Shown here: positions 29,637 through 41,608 of the stretch, piece by piece | Numbering within the stretch: the stretch's first letter is position 1 | Layout: every line of letters begins with the position of its first letter | Assembly: GCF_003113895.1 (NCBI RefSeq) | Contig: NZ_BDUD01000001.1 | Coordinates: 5,469,828 to 5,511,435, forward strand | Source of the DNA: Nostoc commune NIES-4072 | Lineage (GTDB): Bacteria; Cyanobacteriota; Cyanobacteriia; Cyanobacteriales; Nostocaceae | Direction: 5' to 3' | Length of the DNA: 41,608 bases | Position numbers and translations under genes: made by a program | Notes under the pieces: model-generated | What the model was told of the DNA's origin: nothing | Seen by the model: only the letters and a program-made list of their open reading frames with translations | The model's database searches: none

Positions 29637-29642
29637 GTGAGT

Positions 29643-32600
29643 ATGAGTGAGATTTCCGAAGACTTTCTTTTGGCTTTAGCCCAAGAACGGAGTGTGTCTA
29701 GCAGTGAGCTAGAGGTGTTGTTATATGCCGTTCAAGACAAATCGCCAAATGCGATCGCCAAAGAATTGGGTATCAGCGCCGAGGCAGTACGCAAAAGATT
29801 GAGCGAGGTTTATAAGAAATTCCAAGTTAGTGGCAGTGGCCCTGGGAAGCTCACCAAGTTACAGCAAGTTATTGAAAGTGAGTATCGTGCATCTTCAGTT
29901 ACGATGAAACCCATTGTCAACAATCACCAAGATTGGGGCGAAGCACCTAGTATTCGTGATGTCTTCTATGGAAGGGAAGCAGAACTGTCTAAGCTCAAGA
30001 AGTGGATTGTTGATGATAGCTGCCGATTAGTAGCACTATTAGGCATGGGAGGAATTGGCAAAACCACTTTGTCTGTGAAGCTATCAGACGAGGTTCAGGA
30101 TAATTTTGAGTACTTTATTTGGCGAAGTCTCCGCAATGCTCCACCCATCCAAGAGATGTTAGCGAACCTGATTCTATTTGTATCTGATAAGAAGGAAACC
30201 GATTTACCAAAAACTGTAGACGGTCGAGTTACACTGCTAATTAATTATTTAAGAGAGCGTCGAAGTCTTTTGGTACTGGATAATGCCGAGACGATTATGC
30301 AAGGAGGGGATGCTTGCGGCAAGGATTTCGCCTTAGCGGTGGGGCATTATAGAGAAGGATATGAGGGTTATGGCGAGTTGCTCAGACGGGTGGGAGAAGA
30401 ACCTCATATTAGTTGCTTAGTGTTAACTTCTCGAGAAAAACCAAAAGAATTTGCACCTCTAGAAGGAGAAGCATCACCAGTCAGAACGCTATCATTACCT
30501 GGCTTGGGAAAAATAGAAGGACGAGAAGTTCTCAAAGATAAAGGCTTGTTTGGATCAGATCAAGAATGGGCAAAGCTAGTAAGGCATTATTCAGGCAACC
30601 CCTTGGCATTAAAACTAGTTTCTGAGCCGATTCGTGAGTTATTTGGCGGTGATATCGCTGCCTTTTTAAATGAAGGTGAGATAATTTTTGGTGACACCCG
30701 TAATTTATTAGATCAGCAGTTTGAGCGTTTGTCAGAGCTAGAGAAAGAAGTTATGTACTGGCTGGCCATTAAGCGTGAGTTTGTTTCCCTAGAGGAGTTG
30801 TTAAATGATATTGTGCGACCAATGCCAAAAAGGCGGTTACTGGAGGCTTTAGAATCGCTAAGACGGCGATCGCTAATAGAGAACAGTACTGCACTATTCA
30901 CACTTCAACCTGTAGTTATGGAGTACATGACTGAGGTATTGATTGAAAAGGTTAGTCAAGAAATTACAACGGGTGAAACTGCACTATTCATGAGTCATGC
31001 TCTAATTGAAGCCACTGCGAAAGATTATATTAGAAATACTCAAATCAACTTTATACTTAAGCCAGTTTTAGATAGGTTGAAAAGTAGTTTTAGAATTCCT
31101 GCAAATATTGAGTACAAGCTAAAAGAATTTTTATTGAAACTACCAAAAAAACTTCTGCCGGAAGCAGGATATGCAGTTGGAAACGTTTTGAATCTACTTT
31201 GTCAACTACAAATTGATTTGAGCAACTATGACTTTTCTCATCTGACTGTTTGGCAAGCTTACTTACAAGATGTAAATTTGCATCATGTAAATTTTGCTGG
31301 CTCCGACTTAGCTAAATCTGTTTTTGCTGAAACCTTGGGTAGTATTTCGTCGGTGGCATTTAGCCCTGATGGAAAACTTCTGGCTATAGCAAGTGTTGAT
31401 GGTAAAACTTACTTATGGCAAGTTGTAGATGGAGATGGTAAATCACTTTTGACCTTGACAGGACATATCAGCCCAGTATGGTCAGTTGCTTTTAGTCCCG
31501 ATGGTCAAATGGCTAGTGGCAGTGACGACCAAACGGTGAAATTATGGGACATCCATGATGGAAAATGCCTCCAAACCTTGCAAGAGCATAGCGATCGGGT
31601 ACGGTCAGTTGCCTTCAGTCCCGATGGTCAAACTTTGGCTAGTGGCAGTGAAGATCAAACGGTAAAATTATGGGATGTTCGTAATGGGAAGTGCCTCCAA
31701 ACCTTGCAAGGGCATACCAATTGGGTATGGTCAGTTGCTTTTAGTCCCGATGGTCAAACTCTGGCTAGCAGCAGTGACGACCAAACGGTGAAATTATGGG
31801 ATGTTCGTAATGGGAAATGCCTCCAAACCTTACAGGGTCATACTAATTGGGTGCGATCGGTTGCCTTTAGTCCCGATGGTCAAACTCTGGCTAGCGGCAG
31901 TGACGACCAAACGGTGAAGTTATGGGATATCCGTAACCAGAAGTGCCTGCAAACTTTGCAAGGGCATAGCAGCCGAGTATGGTCAGTTGCTTTTAGTCCC
32001 GATGGTCAAACTCTGGCTAGCGGCAGTGACGACCAAACGGTGAAGTTATGGGAATGGGATGTCCGTAACGCTAAGTGTCTCAAAACTTTGCAGGGGAATA
32101 CTAATCGGGTATGGTCAGTCGCTTTTAGCCTTGAGGGACACATCTTGGCCAGTGGCAGTGACGACCAAACGGTGAAATTATGGGACATCCGTAATGGGAA
32201 GTGCCTCCAAACTTTGCAAGGGCATACCAATTGGGTTCGGTCAGTTGCTTTTAGTGCCGATGGTCAAACTCTGGCTAGTGGCAGTGAAGATAAAACGGTG
32301 AAGTTATGGGATGTTCGTAATGGGAAGTGCTTCCAAACTTTGTCAGGGCACACCAGTCGAGTATGGTCAGTTGCTTTCAGTCCCGATGGTCAAACTTTAG
32401 CTAGTGGCAGTGACGACCAAATAGTGAAATTATGGAATGTCTCTAATGGGAAATGCCTCCAAACTTTGTTAGGGCATACCAGTCGAGTATGGTCAGTTGC
32501 TTTTAGTCCCGATGGTCAAACTTTAGCTAGTGGCAGTGAAGATCAAACGGTGAAGTTATGGGATGTCTCTAATGGGAAGTGCCTTCAAATTTTGCAAGGG

Positions 32601-33086
32601 CATACTAATTGGGTATGGTCAGTTGCTTTCAGTCCTGACGGCCACACTTTAGCTAGCGCCAGTGAAGACCAAACAGTGAAATTATGGGATGTTCGTAATG
32701 GGAAATGCCTGCAAACTTTGCAAGGATATACCAATCGGGTACGGTCAGTTGCTTTTAGTCCTGATGGTCAAATTCTGGCTAGCGCCAGTGAAGACCAAAC
32801 GGTGAAGTTATGGGATGTCCGTGATGGAAAGTGCCTTAAAACCTTACAAGGGCATACTCATTGGGTATGGTCAGTTGCTTTTAGTCCTAATGGTCAAACT
32901 CTGGCTAGTGGTAGCCAAGATGAAACGATTAGGCTTTGGGATGTATTGACGGGTGAGTGCCTAAAAACACTGCGATCGCCAAGACCCTACGAAGGAATGA
33001 ATATCACAGGAGTTACAGGGTTAACCGCAGCGCAGTTAATGACGCTAAAAGCTTTAGGCGCGGTGGAAGATGGAGAGCAAAAATAA
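29643..33086 (+). CDS. STAND NTPase: HTH - NB-ARC - WD40 (13 blades)
   Basis: A 1147-residue multidomain protein. N-terminus (about 18-60): a sigma-factor/LuxR-like helix-turn-helix segment, [20 protein letters not shown] and [20 protein letters not shown]. Residues ~105-440: NB-ARC/STAND ATPase with [17 protein letters not shown], Walker [13 protein letters not shown], Walker [19 protein letters not shown] and [10 protein letters not shown] helical linker with pentapeptide-like [18 protein letters not shown] follows. From about residue 565 to 1110 there are 13 WD40 units ([24 protein letters not shown]). STAND proteins act as ATP-switched signal sensors, with repeats recognising the trigger; many serve in defence or cell-death pathways (Kaur, Burroughs, Iyer and Aravind). 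A GTG at 29637 is an alternative start; GGAG at 29617 is far from both. Confidence 0.92.
31350..32975 (+). repeat. Near-identical 126-bp WD40 blade repeats
   Basis: GTCAGTTGCTTTTAGTCCCG and relatives recur every 126 bp (for example starting at 31605, 31731, 31983, 32493). One interval is 132 bp because of a 6-bp duplication (GAATGG) giving LWEWDV in blade 6, and one is 123 bp because blade 2 lacks a codon (GQMAS). Neighbouring units are often more than 90% identical at nucleotide level, including third codon positions, which indicates recent amplification or gene conversion. Confidence 0.9.
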
Positions 33087-37083: not shown

Positions 37084-38385
37084 ATGAGCAATAACAATTT
37101 TTGGCGAACTGCTTACCAGTTATTTAAACCAGAGGAACCTTTAGCGACACCTGAAGGCTTGAAAAGTTTTTACGTCCAGAGAGATAACAGTCCGGTGGAT
37201 AAGCTTATTAGCTTGCTAGAAATGGAAGATGACCCAGCCAAATTTTTACTAGCTGGTCATCGAGGTGGGGGTAAAACTACTGAACTGCGACGATTAGAAC
37301 AAAAATTAGCTGATAAGTACGCAGTAGTTTGGATTGATACACAAACATCTTTAGACAGATATAATATAGGTCATGCGGAAGTTGTAGTTTTAATTGGCTT
37401 ACAAATTGCACGTCAAGTTATTCAATCTAATTGGCTTTTTAAAAAGGATAAATTATTACAAGCTCTCTTGGAGAGCTTAAAAAGCGTGGTTTATCTAGAA
37501 AAAGGAAGTCAAACCGAAAGTTTGGGAATGCCAGAATTTATAGAAAAGGCAGGAATAATTCTCAAACGTGGTTTAACCACAGAAGTCACAAAAACTCTCA
37601 ATGTCCGTCCTTTGCTGAGTGAAATTATCACCATAGTCAATAATATTATCGAAGCTGCGGAAAAAGAACAAAAGCAAAAATTATTAATTATTGTTGATGG
37701 CTTAGATAGACATGACCAAATAACAGCTTTGGAAATGTTTTCTAGCTCTTTGTTAATAGAATTAAACTGTCATATTATCTATTCTATTCCCATTTCGCTG
37801 CGATACTCTCCCAGTTTCCGTCAGCCAATGGAAACCTTTCAAAAATGTTTGGATTTAAATAATCCTCCTGTTTTTGATTGTGATGATAACTTACGTCCAA
37901 CTCATAACCCTAATCACAAAGGTCGTGAAATTCTAATTAATGTCATTAACAAACGGATTATCAGTTTAGGCGATAGCCACAAAGGTTTATTTAATCCTGA
38001 TGCGCTGGAATTAATTTGCAAAAAAAGTGGCGGAGTGATGCGAGATTTAGTCCGATTAGCACGCACTACCTGTGAAATTGGATTGCGGAATAAATTGACT
38101 CTTATAACTTTAAAAACAGCAGAAGAGGCAGTACGAGAAGTGCGTAAGGAATATAACTTAAATGATTACCACTACCCTGAGCTTGATTTAATTCATCGGA
38201 CTGGAAAATTAACAACCAAGGCACATAGCTTGCCAAGTAAGGGTGAATTTATTATTTGTGACGAACTTTTACAAAATAAATTAGTTTTAGGTTATTATAA
38301 CTCAATGCAAGAGTCTTGGTTTGATATTAATCCTATTTTAATAGAAGATTTAGAACGTTGGCAAACTGCTAATAATCATATTTAA
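37084..38385 (+). CDS. P-loop ATPase, first gene of an NTPase pair
   Basis: A 433-residue protein beginning WRTAYQLFKPEEPLATPEGL, then FYVQRDNSPVDKLISLL, and Walker A AGHRGGGKTTELRRLEQKL (residues 57-75). GHRGxGKTTEL is the signature of AAA/STAND-type ATPases found next to repeat-containing NTPases. Walker B is KLLIIVDGLDRHD (about 199-210). FSSSLLIELNCHIIYSIPIS fits a sensor strand, and SGGVMRDLVRLARTTCEIG resembles the helical lid of the ORC/KAP-like group. The C-terminus (HSLPSKGEFIICDELLQNKL, VLGYYNSMQESWFDINPI) resembles a winged-helix tail. It overlaps nothing but is followed after 48 bases by the NACHT-TPR gene, so the two are probably one operon. Function unknown; the pair suggests a conflict or signalling system. 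Confidence 0.82.
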   Translation: MSNNNFWRTAYQLFKPEEPLATPEGLKSFYVQRDNSPVDKLISLLEMEDDPAKFLLAGHRGGGKTTELRRLEQKLADKYAVVWIDTQTSLDRYNIGHAEVVVLIGLQIARQVIQSNWLFKKDKLLQALLESLKSVVYLEKGSQTESLGMPEFIEKAGIILKRGLTTEVTKTLNVRPLLSEIITIVNNIIEAAEKEQKQKLLIIVDGLDRHDQITALEMFSSSLLIELNCHIIYSIPISLRYSPSFRQPMETFQKCLDLNNPPVFDCDDNLRPTHNPNHKGREILINVINKRIISLGDSHKGLFNPDALELICKKSGGVMRDLVRLARTTCEIGLRNKLTLITLKTAEEAVREVRKEYNLNDYHYPELDLIHRTGKLTTKAHSLPSKGEFIICDELLQNKLVLGYYNSMQESWFDINPILIEDLERWQTANNHI

Positions 38386-38433
38386 GTATGTGAATTTTCA
38401 CAATAGATTACTAATTATACGCTGGTGTTGTGT

Positions 38434-41400
38434 ATGCTTTTCCAAGATAGCTACTCTCTCAGTGAAGCTGACAAAGCAGAATTAAATAAATTAGTCAGCG
38501 TATTAGAAATTTCTAGTAATACGACAATTATCTTTGCTATTGCACCAGAGAGTAGTCCTCAGCATCCAGTTGTGAGACAGCTACAAGAATCTTTAGCAAC
38601 CAGCGATGAAAAATTTACATTTGATAAGTTTTTTTATAGTCAAAATTCCTTCCATAATTTTCTGTATAGCCTAGATGATCATCAGCAGCGCAATTTAGAA
38701 GCCGGACGCAGGTTGGTAATGGCATTTGGAATTGACCAATTACCGACACCGCGCTTGGTGAAAGAAATGAAGCAGTTAAATTTAGGAAGAGAAGAGCTAT
38801 TTGGTAGAAATTTAATCCTGATTTTGTGGCTAAATAATGCAGGTTTTTTAGATGAGTTTCGTCATCGTGCGCCAGATTTTTGGGATTGGCGAGAAAAAAT
38901 AGTGGAATTTGAAACGCGAAATCCTTTACTTTATCCCTATTTAGAGTGGCTGATTGCGGAAAATTCTTATCTAAAAATGAGCGGCGTGATGCAGGTAAAT
39001 CGCCAAGTTGATATTTTTCTCGACCAAATTTATGTTTCTCTACAAGCACAATGGCGACAACAAGTAACAGATACTTCTGAACGCAGTCAACGCGAACTTG
39101 AGATGCTGACTGTACGGCAAGTTCAAAGTAGTAGTAGATTGAAAGAGATGGGTTTTGGTAGTGATGATTGGGATGAACCTTACGATTACGAACCGCTACC
39201 AAAAGAACTAATATCAGCATCAGTTTCCAGCACTAAAACGGTTACACAAAAGGTAGATTTAGCTGATGCTGTGCGGGATAACTTATATAGTGTCATTTTA
39301 GGCGCTCCTGGTGCGGGTAAAACTACCCTGCTGCGTTATTTAGCACTACATTTTGCGATCGCAAAAAGAGATAATTTAGAAACAGTCATTGTTGATAATG
39401 ATGCAGTTGAGGATAATCAGAAGAAAGAGTTAGGTAAAACTGTGTTACCTATTTTCTTTCGGATTGCTGATTACGCAGAAAAATTAAAACAACAACCTGA
39501 GTTAACTTTACTTGAATATCTGCGTCAGTTTTACCGCCAGTGGGAAGTTCATTTTCAAGCAGAGGGAGAAATAGAAACCGAGGTGGCGGGGTTGCTGTTG
39601 GATGCTATGCGTCAAGGAAAGTGCTTGATGCTACTCGATGGCTTAGATGAGGTATTTGACCAAGAAAGCCGCAAACAGATTGTAGAACGTATTAACAAAT
39701 TTGTTGATGAGTTCCCTAGCAACAAATTTGTGATTACCAGCCGTATTGCTGGCTACCGTGATGTGCAACTCAGCAGTCGGTTTGCAGAGTTTACTATCGA
39801 AGATATGGACAGCATACAGGTAGAGCGGTTCTTGTATCGCTGGTGTCGAACAGTTGAAAAAGCACAGCAGCCAGATGCTAGCGAGGAGCAATGGCTAAAA
39901 AAAGGTACGGAACAAGCACAGGACATTTTACTGGCTATTCAAGGTAATCCAGGTGTAGAGCGATTGACAGCAAATCCCTTGTTGTTAACTATCTTGGCAT
40001 TAATTCACCGCAATGGCGATCAGCTACCTAACCGACGAGTCAAGCTGTATGAGTTGGCGGTGCAAACTTTGACAGAAGATTGGCAACTAAGTAAGAAGTT
40101 GCCTGATGCACCAAGGGTAGTTTTAAAAGAAACTGAGGTAGTGGAACTTTTAGCACCCCTGGCGTACTGGATGCACGAGGAGAAGCCTTCCGGTTTGGTA
40201 ACGCAAAGGGAAGTGGAGGAAAAATTAGCAGAAAAGCTGGCGGAATTCAACGATACCGAACCGGAATCAGACTCCGTGCGTCAAGCCGTAGGGGAGTTTT
40301 TGCGGAAGGTGCGGGAAACAACAGGTTTATTTGTGGAACGAATACCTGGTTTTTATGGCTTTATGCACCTGACCTTTGAAGAGTATTTTGCCGCGCGTTA
40401 TATTGCGGATAAAGAACAAAGTGAAATTCTGGAACTAATTCAAAAACATTTGAACGAGCCGCGTTGGAATGAACCGCTTTTACTGGCTTTGGGGTATTAC
40501 GGGAGTCATTTTTCAACGCAATTTAAGAAGTTAGCCGAGAAATTGTTTATTAATTTAGACAAATATCAACCTGTGCTGCAACATGGGGAAATAAAAATTA
40601 CTGCATCTAATAATGATACAACTATTATTTATTCAAAGGAGGATGAATCAGGAAATAATTTAAATAAATTAGAATTTAAGCTTAGAGATTTGCTGTTTGC
40701 AGGACAGGTAATTGCTGAAATTGAAATTAATAATATCGTTATTCGCAAAAAACCAATTTCAAAGTTAGTTATTACCTATCTTGGCATAGATAGGGATTAT
40801 GAGGATGATATTACTAAGCAACTACTGAGGCTGCTACGCAAAATTGAAATATTTTATCAAAAAGGTGAAGTCATAAATTTATTGAAAGAAGCAGCTAATG
40901 ACTTAACGTTGTCTGAAGAAATTCGGATTAAAGCAAAAACTGCTATTCTTTATGTTGCTTGCGGCGAATCAACAGGATTGGTTGATTGCGTAACAGAAAT
41001 TGCCAACCAATTAGAGCCTTTATTGTTTTGCGAGATGAGGGATTTGGTTCAAGAACTGGGTGATGAAATGACACCTGTTCTTGAAAATATTCATAATAAA
41101 AGTTGTCAAACAGCATTAAACTTTCTTATAGCTATCTCTTATCTTCGCAAAGATAAGTATGATAAAGCAATAGAAATGTTTGAATTGATAACTGATAAAT
41201 TAGATAGCAATTTAAGTGTTTATATTGCCTGGTGTTATGCTATCTGTTATCAAGAAAAAAAAGTATTTGAACAAGCATTTTCTTATTATCAAGAATGTTC
41301 TGAAAAGCTTGACCAATATAATATTGGATCATCTGCGTTTATAAGATTTTGGGAAAATCGAGGTATTTGTCATAGATTACATGGCAAGTTTGAGCAAGCT

Positions 41401-41608
41401 TTAAATTATTTTCAGCAAATGCTGAGTATTAGCAAAGAAATTAATAAACTTCAAAATGAATCATTAGCTTTATATCACATAGGTAGAACTTATCAAGAAT
41501 GGGGTAAATATGAGCAATCCATCAATTATTATCAACAAAGCCGCGACCTTTATCAAGAATTAGGCAAAGATAAAAATGTAGCTAATCAGTGGTACTGGCT
41601 AGGGATTT
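38434..41608 (+). CDS. NACHT-type STAND NTPase with C-terminal TPRs, cut by the window end
   Basis: Open from ATG 38434 to the last base: 1058 codons with no stop, C-terminus missing. Residues 1-~170 form an N-terminal domain with strands TTIIFAIAPE and NLILILWLNNAGFLDEFR and the motif APDFWDWREKIVEFE; it looks like a P-loop fold without Walker A, as in the inactive NTPase domains of bacterial TPR proteins (inference). Residues ~285-620: NACHT NTPase with Walker A ILGAPGAGKTTLLRYLALH (Gly290 region), Walker B CLMLLDGLDEVFD (about 396-406), VITSRIAGYRD, LTANPLLLTILALIH and FYGFMHLTFEEYFAARYIA. A helical region follows, then TPR units from about 890 (KYDKAIEMFELI, KFEQALNYFQQML, KYEQSINYYQQSRDLYQELG) continuing past the edge. 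A signal-sensing switch protein partnered with the upstream ATPase. Confidence 0.9.
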   Translation, partial: MLFQDSYSLSEADKAELNKLVSVLEISSNTTIIFAIAPESSPQHPVVRQLQESLATSDEKFTFDKFFYSQNSFHNFLYSLDDHQQRNLEAGRRLVMAFGIDQLPTPRLVKEMKQLNLGREELFGRNLILILWLNNAGFLDEFRHRAPDFWDWREKIVEFETRNPLLYPYLEWLIAENSYLKMSGVMQVNRQVDIFLDQIYVSLQAQWRQQVTDTSERSQRELEMLTVRQVQSSSRLKEMGFGSDDWDEPYDYEPLPKELISASVSSTKTVTQKVDLADAVRDNLYSVILGAPGAGKTTLLRYLALHFAIAKRDNLETVIVDNDAVEDNQKKELGKTVLPIFFRIADYAEKLKQQPELTLLEYLRQFYRQWEVHFQAEGEIETEVAGLLLDAMRQGKCLMLLDGLDEVFDQESRKQIVERINKFVDEFPSNKFVITSRIAGYRDVQLSSRFAEFTIEDMDSIQVERFLYRWCRTVEKAQQPDASEEQWLKKGTEQAQDILLAIQGNPGVERLTANPLLLTILALIHRNGDQLPNRRVKLYELAVQTLTEDWQLSKKLPDAPRVVLKETEVVELLAPLAYWMHEEKPSGLVTQREVEEKLAEKLAEFNDTEPESDSVRQAVGEFLRKVRETTGLFVERIPGFYGFMHLTFEEYFAARYIADKEQSEILELIQKHLNEPRWNEPLLLALGYYGSHFSTQFKKLAEKLFINLDKYQPVLQHGEIKITASNNDTTIIYSKEDESGNNLNKLEFKLRDLLFAGQVIAEIEINNIVIRKKPISKLVITYLGIDRDYEDDITKQLLRLLRKIEIFYQKGEVINLLKEAANDLTLSEEIRIKAKTAILYVACGESTGLVDCVTEIANQLEPLLFCEMRDLVQELGDEMTPVLENIHNKSCQTALNFLIAISYLRKDKYDKAIEMFELITDKLDSNLSVYIAWCYAICYQEKKVFEQAFSYYQECSEKLDQYNIGSSAFIRFWENRGICHRLHGKFEQALNYFQQMLSISKEINKLQNESLALYHIGRTYQEWGKYEQSINYYQQSRDLYQELGKDKNVANQWYWLGI

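Follow-up and report, generated by a model that had tools for sequence, protein, structure and literature searches.

Related systems and the locus under study

The nearest published plan to the gene pair considered here is the nSTAND2 counter-invader system, which is described as consisting of two adjacent genes of the STAND type (signal transduction ATPases with numerous domains), one with eroded NTP-binding motifs and variable fusions, mostly to GT4 or HEPN, and is predicted to form a hetero-multimer (PMC8195603). In the iSTAND MoxR-vWA ternary systems, found mostly in multicellular bacteria, an inactive STAND domain cooperates with variable modules and an active ATPase (PMC7159879). Here, we analyzed a pair of genes within a 41,608-nucleotide stretch (hereafter the window) of the 8.2 Mb genome of the cyanobacterium Nostoc commune NIES-4072 (contig NZ_BDUD01000001.1, positions 5,469,828–5,511,435). 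Gene A (37084..38385, + strand) encodes a predicted AAA+ ATPase of the ORC/Cdc6-STAND type with 433 amino acids (aa). Gene B (38434..41608, + strand) starts with ATG at 38434 (alternatively GTG at 38425), 48 bases 3' of the gene A stop, and encodes an N-terminal domain, here named BN, followed by NACHT and tetratricopeptide repeats (TPR); its frame is open within the window and passes the right edge at 41608, being incomplete there. A preliminary description of the window had proposed a two-gene NTPase cassette, and its order, spacing and the Walker A and B motifs of gene A were all found in place. Gene A and BN form a near-obligate two-gene family, the constant element of which is BN, not NACHT. 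We are inclined, if only slightly, to read the pair as a member of this family that joins an active AAA+ ATPase to a BN domain with an interchangeable sensor module, in which a nucleotide-binding leucine-rich repeat (NLR)-like sensor would pass its signal on to a dedicated ATPase by way of a pseudo-NTPase adaptor.

nSTAND2, as described, and the pair have the two-gene plan with an active and an eroded half in common; adjacency and the contrast in P-loops are seen directly here, and we infer that BN is a STAND module. A conserved arginine finger in both proteins belongs to the nSTAND2 description; candidates in our system are an arginine of BN (84 of 87 sampled partners) and R291 of gene A, invariant in 39 aligned rows. 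The present family may already have been described as nSTAND2. The iSTAND systems resemble the pair in the division of labor between an inactive and an active component, and one gene A copy is fused to the SAV_2336 protein of a VMAP-type locus; the window system differs in having two genes, not three, and no MoxR or vWA gene was found among the window neighbors scanned. With the antiphage NLR-like proteins of bacterial NACHT/Avs systems, gene B shares NACHT, a helical part and C-terminal repeats, whereas the effector slot is here filled by BN, without a match to an enzyme family, and a separate ATPase gene is present. Compared with the AAA+ ATPases ORC/Cdc6, TnsC and CED-4/APAF-1, gene A stands in a different context, and a strong sequence relative was not found among PDB chains (best E 4e-4). 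Searches of one open-access library, in which most subscription papers are absent, gave no title or abstract opening on such an ATPase-BN pair.

Gene A and BN occur together

The same 98 genomes of the cyanobacterial phylum were searched with broad profiles of gene A (A5, 39 rows) and BN (A4, 37 rows). Part of the profile rows derived from these genomes, and the match counts are accordingly not independent of the profiles; the totals are lower bounds, with at most 17 gene A and 38 BN candidates scored per genome. Gene A gave 99 matches in 27 genomes, including seven in the window genome, and BN 125 matches in 28. For 87 of the 99 gene A matches, BN was located at most 1 kb downstream on the same strand, and the same holds for 85 of the 90 matches that are 1100 nt or longer. 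With starts less than 6 kb apart, we counted 91 downstream, three upstream and no opposite-strand pairs. Ten gene A matches had no BN within 4 kb, seven of which were shorter than 1100 nt, and the BN matches were divided into 88 paired and 37 unpaired ones. After refetching, a downstream BN open reading frame (ORF) followed 87 of 90 gene A ORFs, with 48 overlapping, 18 at a distance of 0–100 nt and 21 farther away (two of them by more than 2 kb); as ORFs in this set begin at the first possible start, the overlap count is an upper bound. No BN ORF was seen for the other three, of which one lies at the end of its contig. The resulting 87 partner rows contain one partner twice (L203 = L244).

Consistently, 54 of 63 named loci carried BN at most 1.5 kb downstream of gene A; of the remaining nine, four lie at contig ends and the others are L017, L031, L036, L054 and L061. 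Two homologue searches scored only about 8000 candidates each, and totals are again lower bounds. Pairing extends to 10 of 13 named non-cyanobacterial loci, namely two each from Phycisphaerae, Psychrobacter and Aminicenantes, one each from Desulfobacteraceae, Anaerolineae and Saprospiraceae, and a contig-edge fragment from Bacteroidales. In the 45 loci with a gene A of at least 51% identity (L010–L054), the first ~200 residues of gene B were detected by tblastn at most 1.2 kb downstream in 39; L017 held the start of B only, L031 had it upstream, and L036, L047, L053 and L054 were without it. Distant relatives of gene A (~20–30% identity) are likewise followed by a gene with a similar N-terminal region. 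Moreover, the identity matrices of gene A and BN correlate with r = 0.87 over 86 pairs (excluding the ORF of gene A fused to TIR; none of 500 permutations exceeded 0.14), a value for which shared inheritance alone would suffice. Recurrence on the same strand and with the same N-terminal domain, both in the named loci and in the 98 genomes, exceeds chance adjacency and bears out the expectation that the two genes are found together across genomes. The bipartite system suggested at the outset is thereby supported, but NACHT is not the conserved partner of the ATPase: the N-terminal domain is constant, and the NACHT type accounts for two of the 87 partners.

Features of the ATPase

Gene A features a Walker A motif of the GHRGxGKTTEL type (37252..37287, residues 57–68; like all motifs of the pair on the + strand), in which G58, H59, G61, G63 and K64 are invariant in the 39-row alignment, and a Walker B motif (37681..37716, residues 200–211) with invariant D205 and with L207 and D208 conserved in at least 90%. 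An SGGxxR motif (38026..38043, residues 315–320; G316 and G317 invariant, S315 and R320 at least 90% in the same alignment), which we take to be sensor-2-like, lies downstream of the invariant R291. All 87 sampled gene A ORFs contain GxxGxGK[STA], and 72 of them fit a stricter regular expression for Walker B. The AlphaFold2 (AF2) model predicts an AAA+ core followed by a helical lid and a winged helix; the C-terminal domain (38170..38376, residues 363–431), with the DSSP order H-E-E-H-E-E-H, is read as winged-helix-like. Best structural matches of the model are the DNA-binding ORC/Cdc6 and TnsC. With its Walker motifs, and with lid and winged helix as modeled, gene A is assigned to the ORC/Cdc6-STAND-type AAA+ ATPases.

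Several family names were considered and not adopted. Pfam KAP_NTPase reaches 34.0 bits on window gene A (cut-off 20) and 27.2 bits on the L113 copy, but 12.1, 18.5 and 12.0 bits on those of L055, L115 and L070, i.e., family members disagree over the cut-off and a plain KAP NTPase is an unlikely description. Similarity to the DS-41 antiphage protein 1 (NF053860) and to Sll1717 (NF047389) is weak and confined to the P-loop region, with at most 28 and 40 bits, respectively, in the A proteins scanned; window gene A scores 22.2 bits against the NF053860 cut-off of 370, and the NF047389 cut-off is 75. NF053860 was without a match in six genomes, where the controls of that search were likewise silent.

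The BN domain

BN (38458..38925, residues 9–164), the constant partner of gene A, is an alpha/beta domain of about 155 residues with a putative pseudo-P-loop fold and without Walker motifs. The preliminary description had seen an apparently inactive P-loop-like N-terminal domain; in agreement with this, the P-loop motif occurs in none of the 87 sampled BN domains and the AF2 model alternates beta and alpha elements (pLDDT, the predicted local distance difference test, mostly 75–90), homology to P-loop NTPases being presumptive. A Walker-B-like strand is followed by Gly in 85 of 87 partners and by E or D two columns further in 79, and an APDFWxW motif, within the APDFWxWR stretch that closes the last helix, retains its Asp in 87/87 and its Trp in 82/87. 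Arg119 (codon 38788..38790), invariant in the 37 rows of the BN profile, is the arginine mentioned above and a candidate trans-acting residue. BN of the window type and BN of distant pairs could be aligned by pairwise hhalign over 144 columns (probability 98.9, E 3e-17).

BN was not assigned to a family by the matches listed. Residues 1–160 of gene B are free of Pfam families among the best 25 of 43 found, and no PADLOC or NCBIfam match was seen over them; a separate scan of residues 1–214 against NCBIfam was without a match at E ≤ 1, and BN alone from ten proteins came near the cut-off of no NCBIfam model. No Pfam family covers BN of the scanned partners among the matches listed. The BN profile found no convincing sequence relative in the PDB (best E 0.27). 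When the long B model was compared by structure, NACHT dominated the matches and few of them extended into BN; tandem AAA+ chains (DRG1, Rix7, p97) were matched over residues 6–637 with root-mean-square deviations of 16–19 and were not used as proof. An origin of BN as inactivated duplicate of gene A was rejected, as hhalign was not significant in four comparisons (probability 0.6 to 13). BN is probably a dead ATPase, with a presumed descent from a P-loop NTPase. Short stand-alone BN proteins of ~165–215 aa also exist apart from any gene A match (G000:C1:2165134-2165544, similar in other genomes).

NACHT, TPR array and the sequence past the window

In proteins of the window type, BN is connected to NACHT by a linker (38926..39063, residues 165–210) conserved in 120 homologues among the matches listed. 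The NACHT domain (39289..39846; Pfam NACHT 38.1 bits, cut-off 26.7) contains Walker A (39301..39333, residues 290–300) and Walker B (39625..39657, residues 398–408), and the TPR array, which runs past the window, is best matched by TPR_12 at 41347..41559 (PF13424, 56.7 bits, cut-off 30.1). The complete NACHT module and the TPRs noted beforehand thus both exceed their Pfam cut-offs. NLR folds match residues ~160–820 in structure comparison, and Foldseek matches of the model include NLRC4, NLRP3, NOD2 and Avs4. Gene B is a NACHT/NLR-like STAND protein, with Walker A and B in its NACHT domain and C-terminal repeats.

Extension to the right, in a 20-kb stretch (L008) in which parts of the TPR array read N, added further TPRs and a C-terminal tail located ~7.1 kb from the gene B start. 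Here, 240-bp tandem units with 89% matches were found in the readable part, no effector was visible by eye, and the next gene, encoding a DUF3368 protein, lies on the other strand. The database protein P0122 (1377 aa) has 98% identity to gene B in the initial 480 residues, and the tail is common to both by eye; with the sequence partly unreadable, this suggests that the repeat number differs between the two. Several relatives of gene B among the matches listed reach, for example, 1377 to 1816 aa. Near-identical internal repeats were present in five of eight partners tested (self-identity over 120 aa of 0.96 in L171, 0.92 in L246, 0.89 in L162, 0.88 in L183 and 0.87 in L184); values for the remaining three were lower, at 0.59 and 0.58 and, in the window copy with its X residues, at 0.17.

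Variable C-termini of BN partners

Among chosen partners, Pfam detected TPR in L113, L058 and L055, NACHT-TPR in the window, NB-ARC-TPR in L246 and nSTAND1 in L203; WD40 repeats occur in L230 and L219 among the matches listed, with an nSTAND1-like P-loop by eye in L230. A metallo-beta-lactamase domain follows BN in L059 and L065, a small type with 10 proteins found. When the 87 partners were sorted by regular expression, 42 fell under "other" (mostly TPR) and 38 under nSTAND1 (23 with WD40), five were short and two were of the NACHT type, one of the latter being the window's own; these classes overlook degenerate motifs, and the NB-ARC protein of L246 and some long proteins are counted as "other." Because the C-termini after BN vary, BN is the common part and NACHT one of several partners. 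The range seen here, TPR, NACHT-TPR, NB-ARC-TPR, nSTAND1/WD40 and metallo-beta-lactamase, differs from the mostly GT4 or HEPN fusions described for nSTAND2, with which the comparison is one of plan, not of sequence. The two BN fusions to a metallo-beta-lactamase fold, both from Aminicenantes and adjoining gene A (L059 4681-6234, L065 11089-12621), represent an enzymatic C-terminus.

Distribution and links to conflict systems

A DUF3598 gene, which flanks the pair on its left, was found in 29 of 29 genomes of the genus. At 20 loci the 1.5 kb downstream of it (in one case 0.5 kb) were compared with the pair at the nucleotide level, and only the window's own locus matched; in G401 and G411 the flanks adjoin directly, at a point where the window genome contains ~8.8 kb of additional sequence. 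Window-type gene A (at least 69% identity) was found in 11 of 53 genus genomes; in six of the other ten, those also covered by the DUF3598 search (G389, G392, G393, G399, G409 and G412), it lies on another contig or more than 0.5 Mb from the DUF3598 gene. The window pair is accessory at this site and absent there in the relatives examined.

A few gene A copies are linked to conflict-system proteins, by one locus each. In G024, a gene A copy with a TIR domain (TIR_2, E 1e-31) is located between another gene A and a 1252-aa BN partner. On plasmid p057_J of Nostoc sp. C057 (L123 6354-9278), a protein matched by SAV_2336_NTERM (539 bits, cut-off 200) ends in a gene A homologue of 71% identity, and its gene adjoins a MoxR ATPase gene and a VMAP-M1/VMAP-C gene; we read SAV_2336 as the vWA component of a VMAP-type locus. 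On Acaryochloris marina pREC1, typed as conjugative, two tyrosine recombinases enclose a pair and HicAB genes, and a NACHT gene lies immediately beyond this segment. A role of the pair in conflict is likely. As to these loci, the TIR-fused gene A (L244 92-2182, identical to L203 1454-3544) also includes an uncharacterised C-terminal part and its partner has two BN matches, and an XcyI restriction enzyme is annotated ~7 kb from the p057_J fusion gene.

Possible mechanism and alternative explanations

According to the reading that we favor, the TPRs would bind a ligand, probably a protein, whereupon the NACHT module would switch with ATP and cluster as in NLRs, bringing BN domains together. BN, lacking a P-loop and carrying a near-invariant arginine, could then dock on the gene A protein, which would oligomerize or alter its ATPase state, and the response might be delivered by the gene A protein itself or by an attached enzyme such as the TIR domain of one relative. 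If so, a two-gene core recurs in cyanobacteria as several paralogues and also in several other phyla, and effector-less bacterial NACHT and TPR proteins gain a concrete partner in one small adjacent ATPase gene. That BN is the part usually adjoining the ATPase in other genomes points to a widespread two-gene switch of bacterial alarm or immune proteins. A bolder version, which we regard as doubtful, is a general relay: BN would occupy the N-terminal slot of NACHT, NB-ARC and nSTAND1 receptors and, on clustering, provide its arginine in trans to A, with a role like that of Death-like domains in apoptosomes and with A as a shared second ring able to carry TIR.

Several observations weigh against such an interpretation. 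Sequence homology between BN and gene A falls short of significance, PADLOC matches are weak (best 33 bits), and window gene A was without a match in phage records (tblastn). Each of the conflict links described above is a single locus; around the p057_J gene A, BN was found in none of six C057 proteins tested, and the window-genome neighbors that were scanned comprise housekeeping genes and genes for a WD40 and a DUF3368 protein. Furthermore, 52 of the 53 genus genomes carry presumed paralogues of gene A with 25–28% identity, a distribution more in keeping with core than with defense genes; a pure defense reading is weakened for this branch. Finally, gene B may be frame-broken in this genome.

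Part of this evidence would suit a function in regulation or stress signaling instead of immunity, in which A would bind DNA by its winged helix and act as a STAND-type transcription switch of the MalT/AfsR kind, with BN-NACHT-TPR or BN-TPR proteins as receivers. The winged-helix-like C-terminus, the DNA-binding nature of the best structural matches, the near-universal 25–28% branch and the lack of nuclease and other toxin domains in the Pfam matches listed for the window pair speak for it, but the TIR fusion and the copy in the VMAP locus are ill-suited to a plain regulator, and the window-type pair is patchy (11/53); we rate this explanation as unlikely. Decay of the window copy, i.e., a frame-broken gene B that no longer works, is suggested by readable TPR pieces past the window whose frames differ, provided that the N runs have their true length, and by the database protein P0121 (1058 aa), which stops at the last codon of the window; however, gene B is open inside the window and several relatives among the matches listed are longer, and decay appears to us possible at best.

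A further question is whether the family itself is known, as a part of the described nSTAND2 system. The plan of adjacent STAND genes, one of them eroded and variably fused, is alike (PMC8195603), but neither of the usual fusions, GT4 and HEPN, was seen among the Pfam matches listed for 11 partners (one covered in part), and we consider this identity improbable. Similarly, BN could be another Rossmann-like binding domain that does not derive from a P-loop NTPase, with pairing reflecting only co-regulation of neighbors. The insignificant hhalign comparisons with gene A and the missing PDB relative of the BN profile would fit this, whereas the alternating beta-alpha order of the model, the Walker-B-like strand with its conserved Gly and acidic residue and the many gene pairs that overlap or abut argue against it; we give it little credence.

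Neighboring genes

The neighbor scan, which left out small ORFs in between, covered genes for FtsX, DUF3598/BFA1, a WD40 protein, deformylase, DUF3368, Leu/Phe transferase, HhH-GPD, M50, SerRS and DUF3611 proteins and one ORF without a match. A second NLR-like gene lies 4 kb upstream of the pair (29637-33086, + strand) and encodes the WD40 protein of 1149 aa, which by eye has an N-terminal helix-turn-helix-like part and an NB-ARC-like P-loop. The DUF3368 gene directly downstream of the pair (L008 9710-10204, - strand) encodes a protein that we take to be PIN-like; in G401 and G411, relatives without the pair, it comes after the DUF3598 gene.

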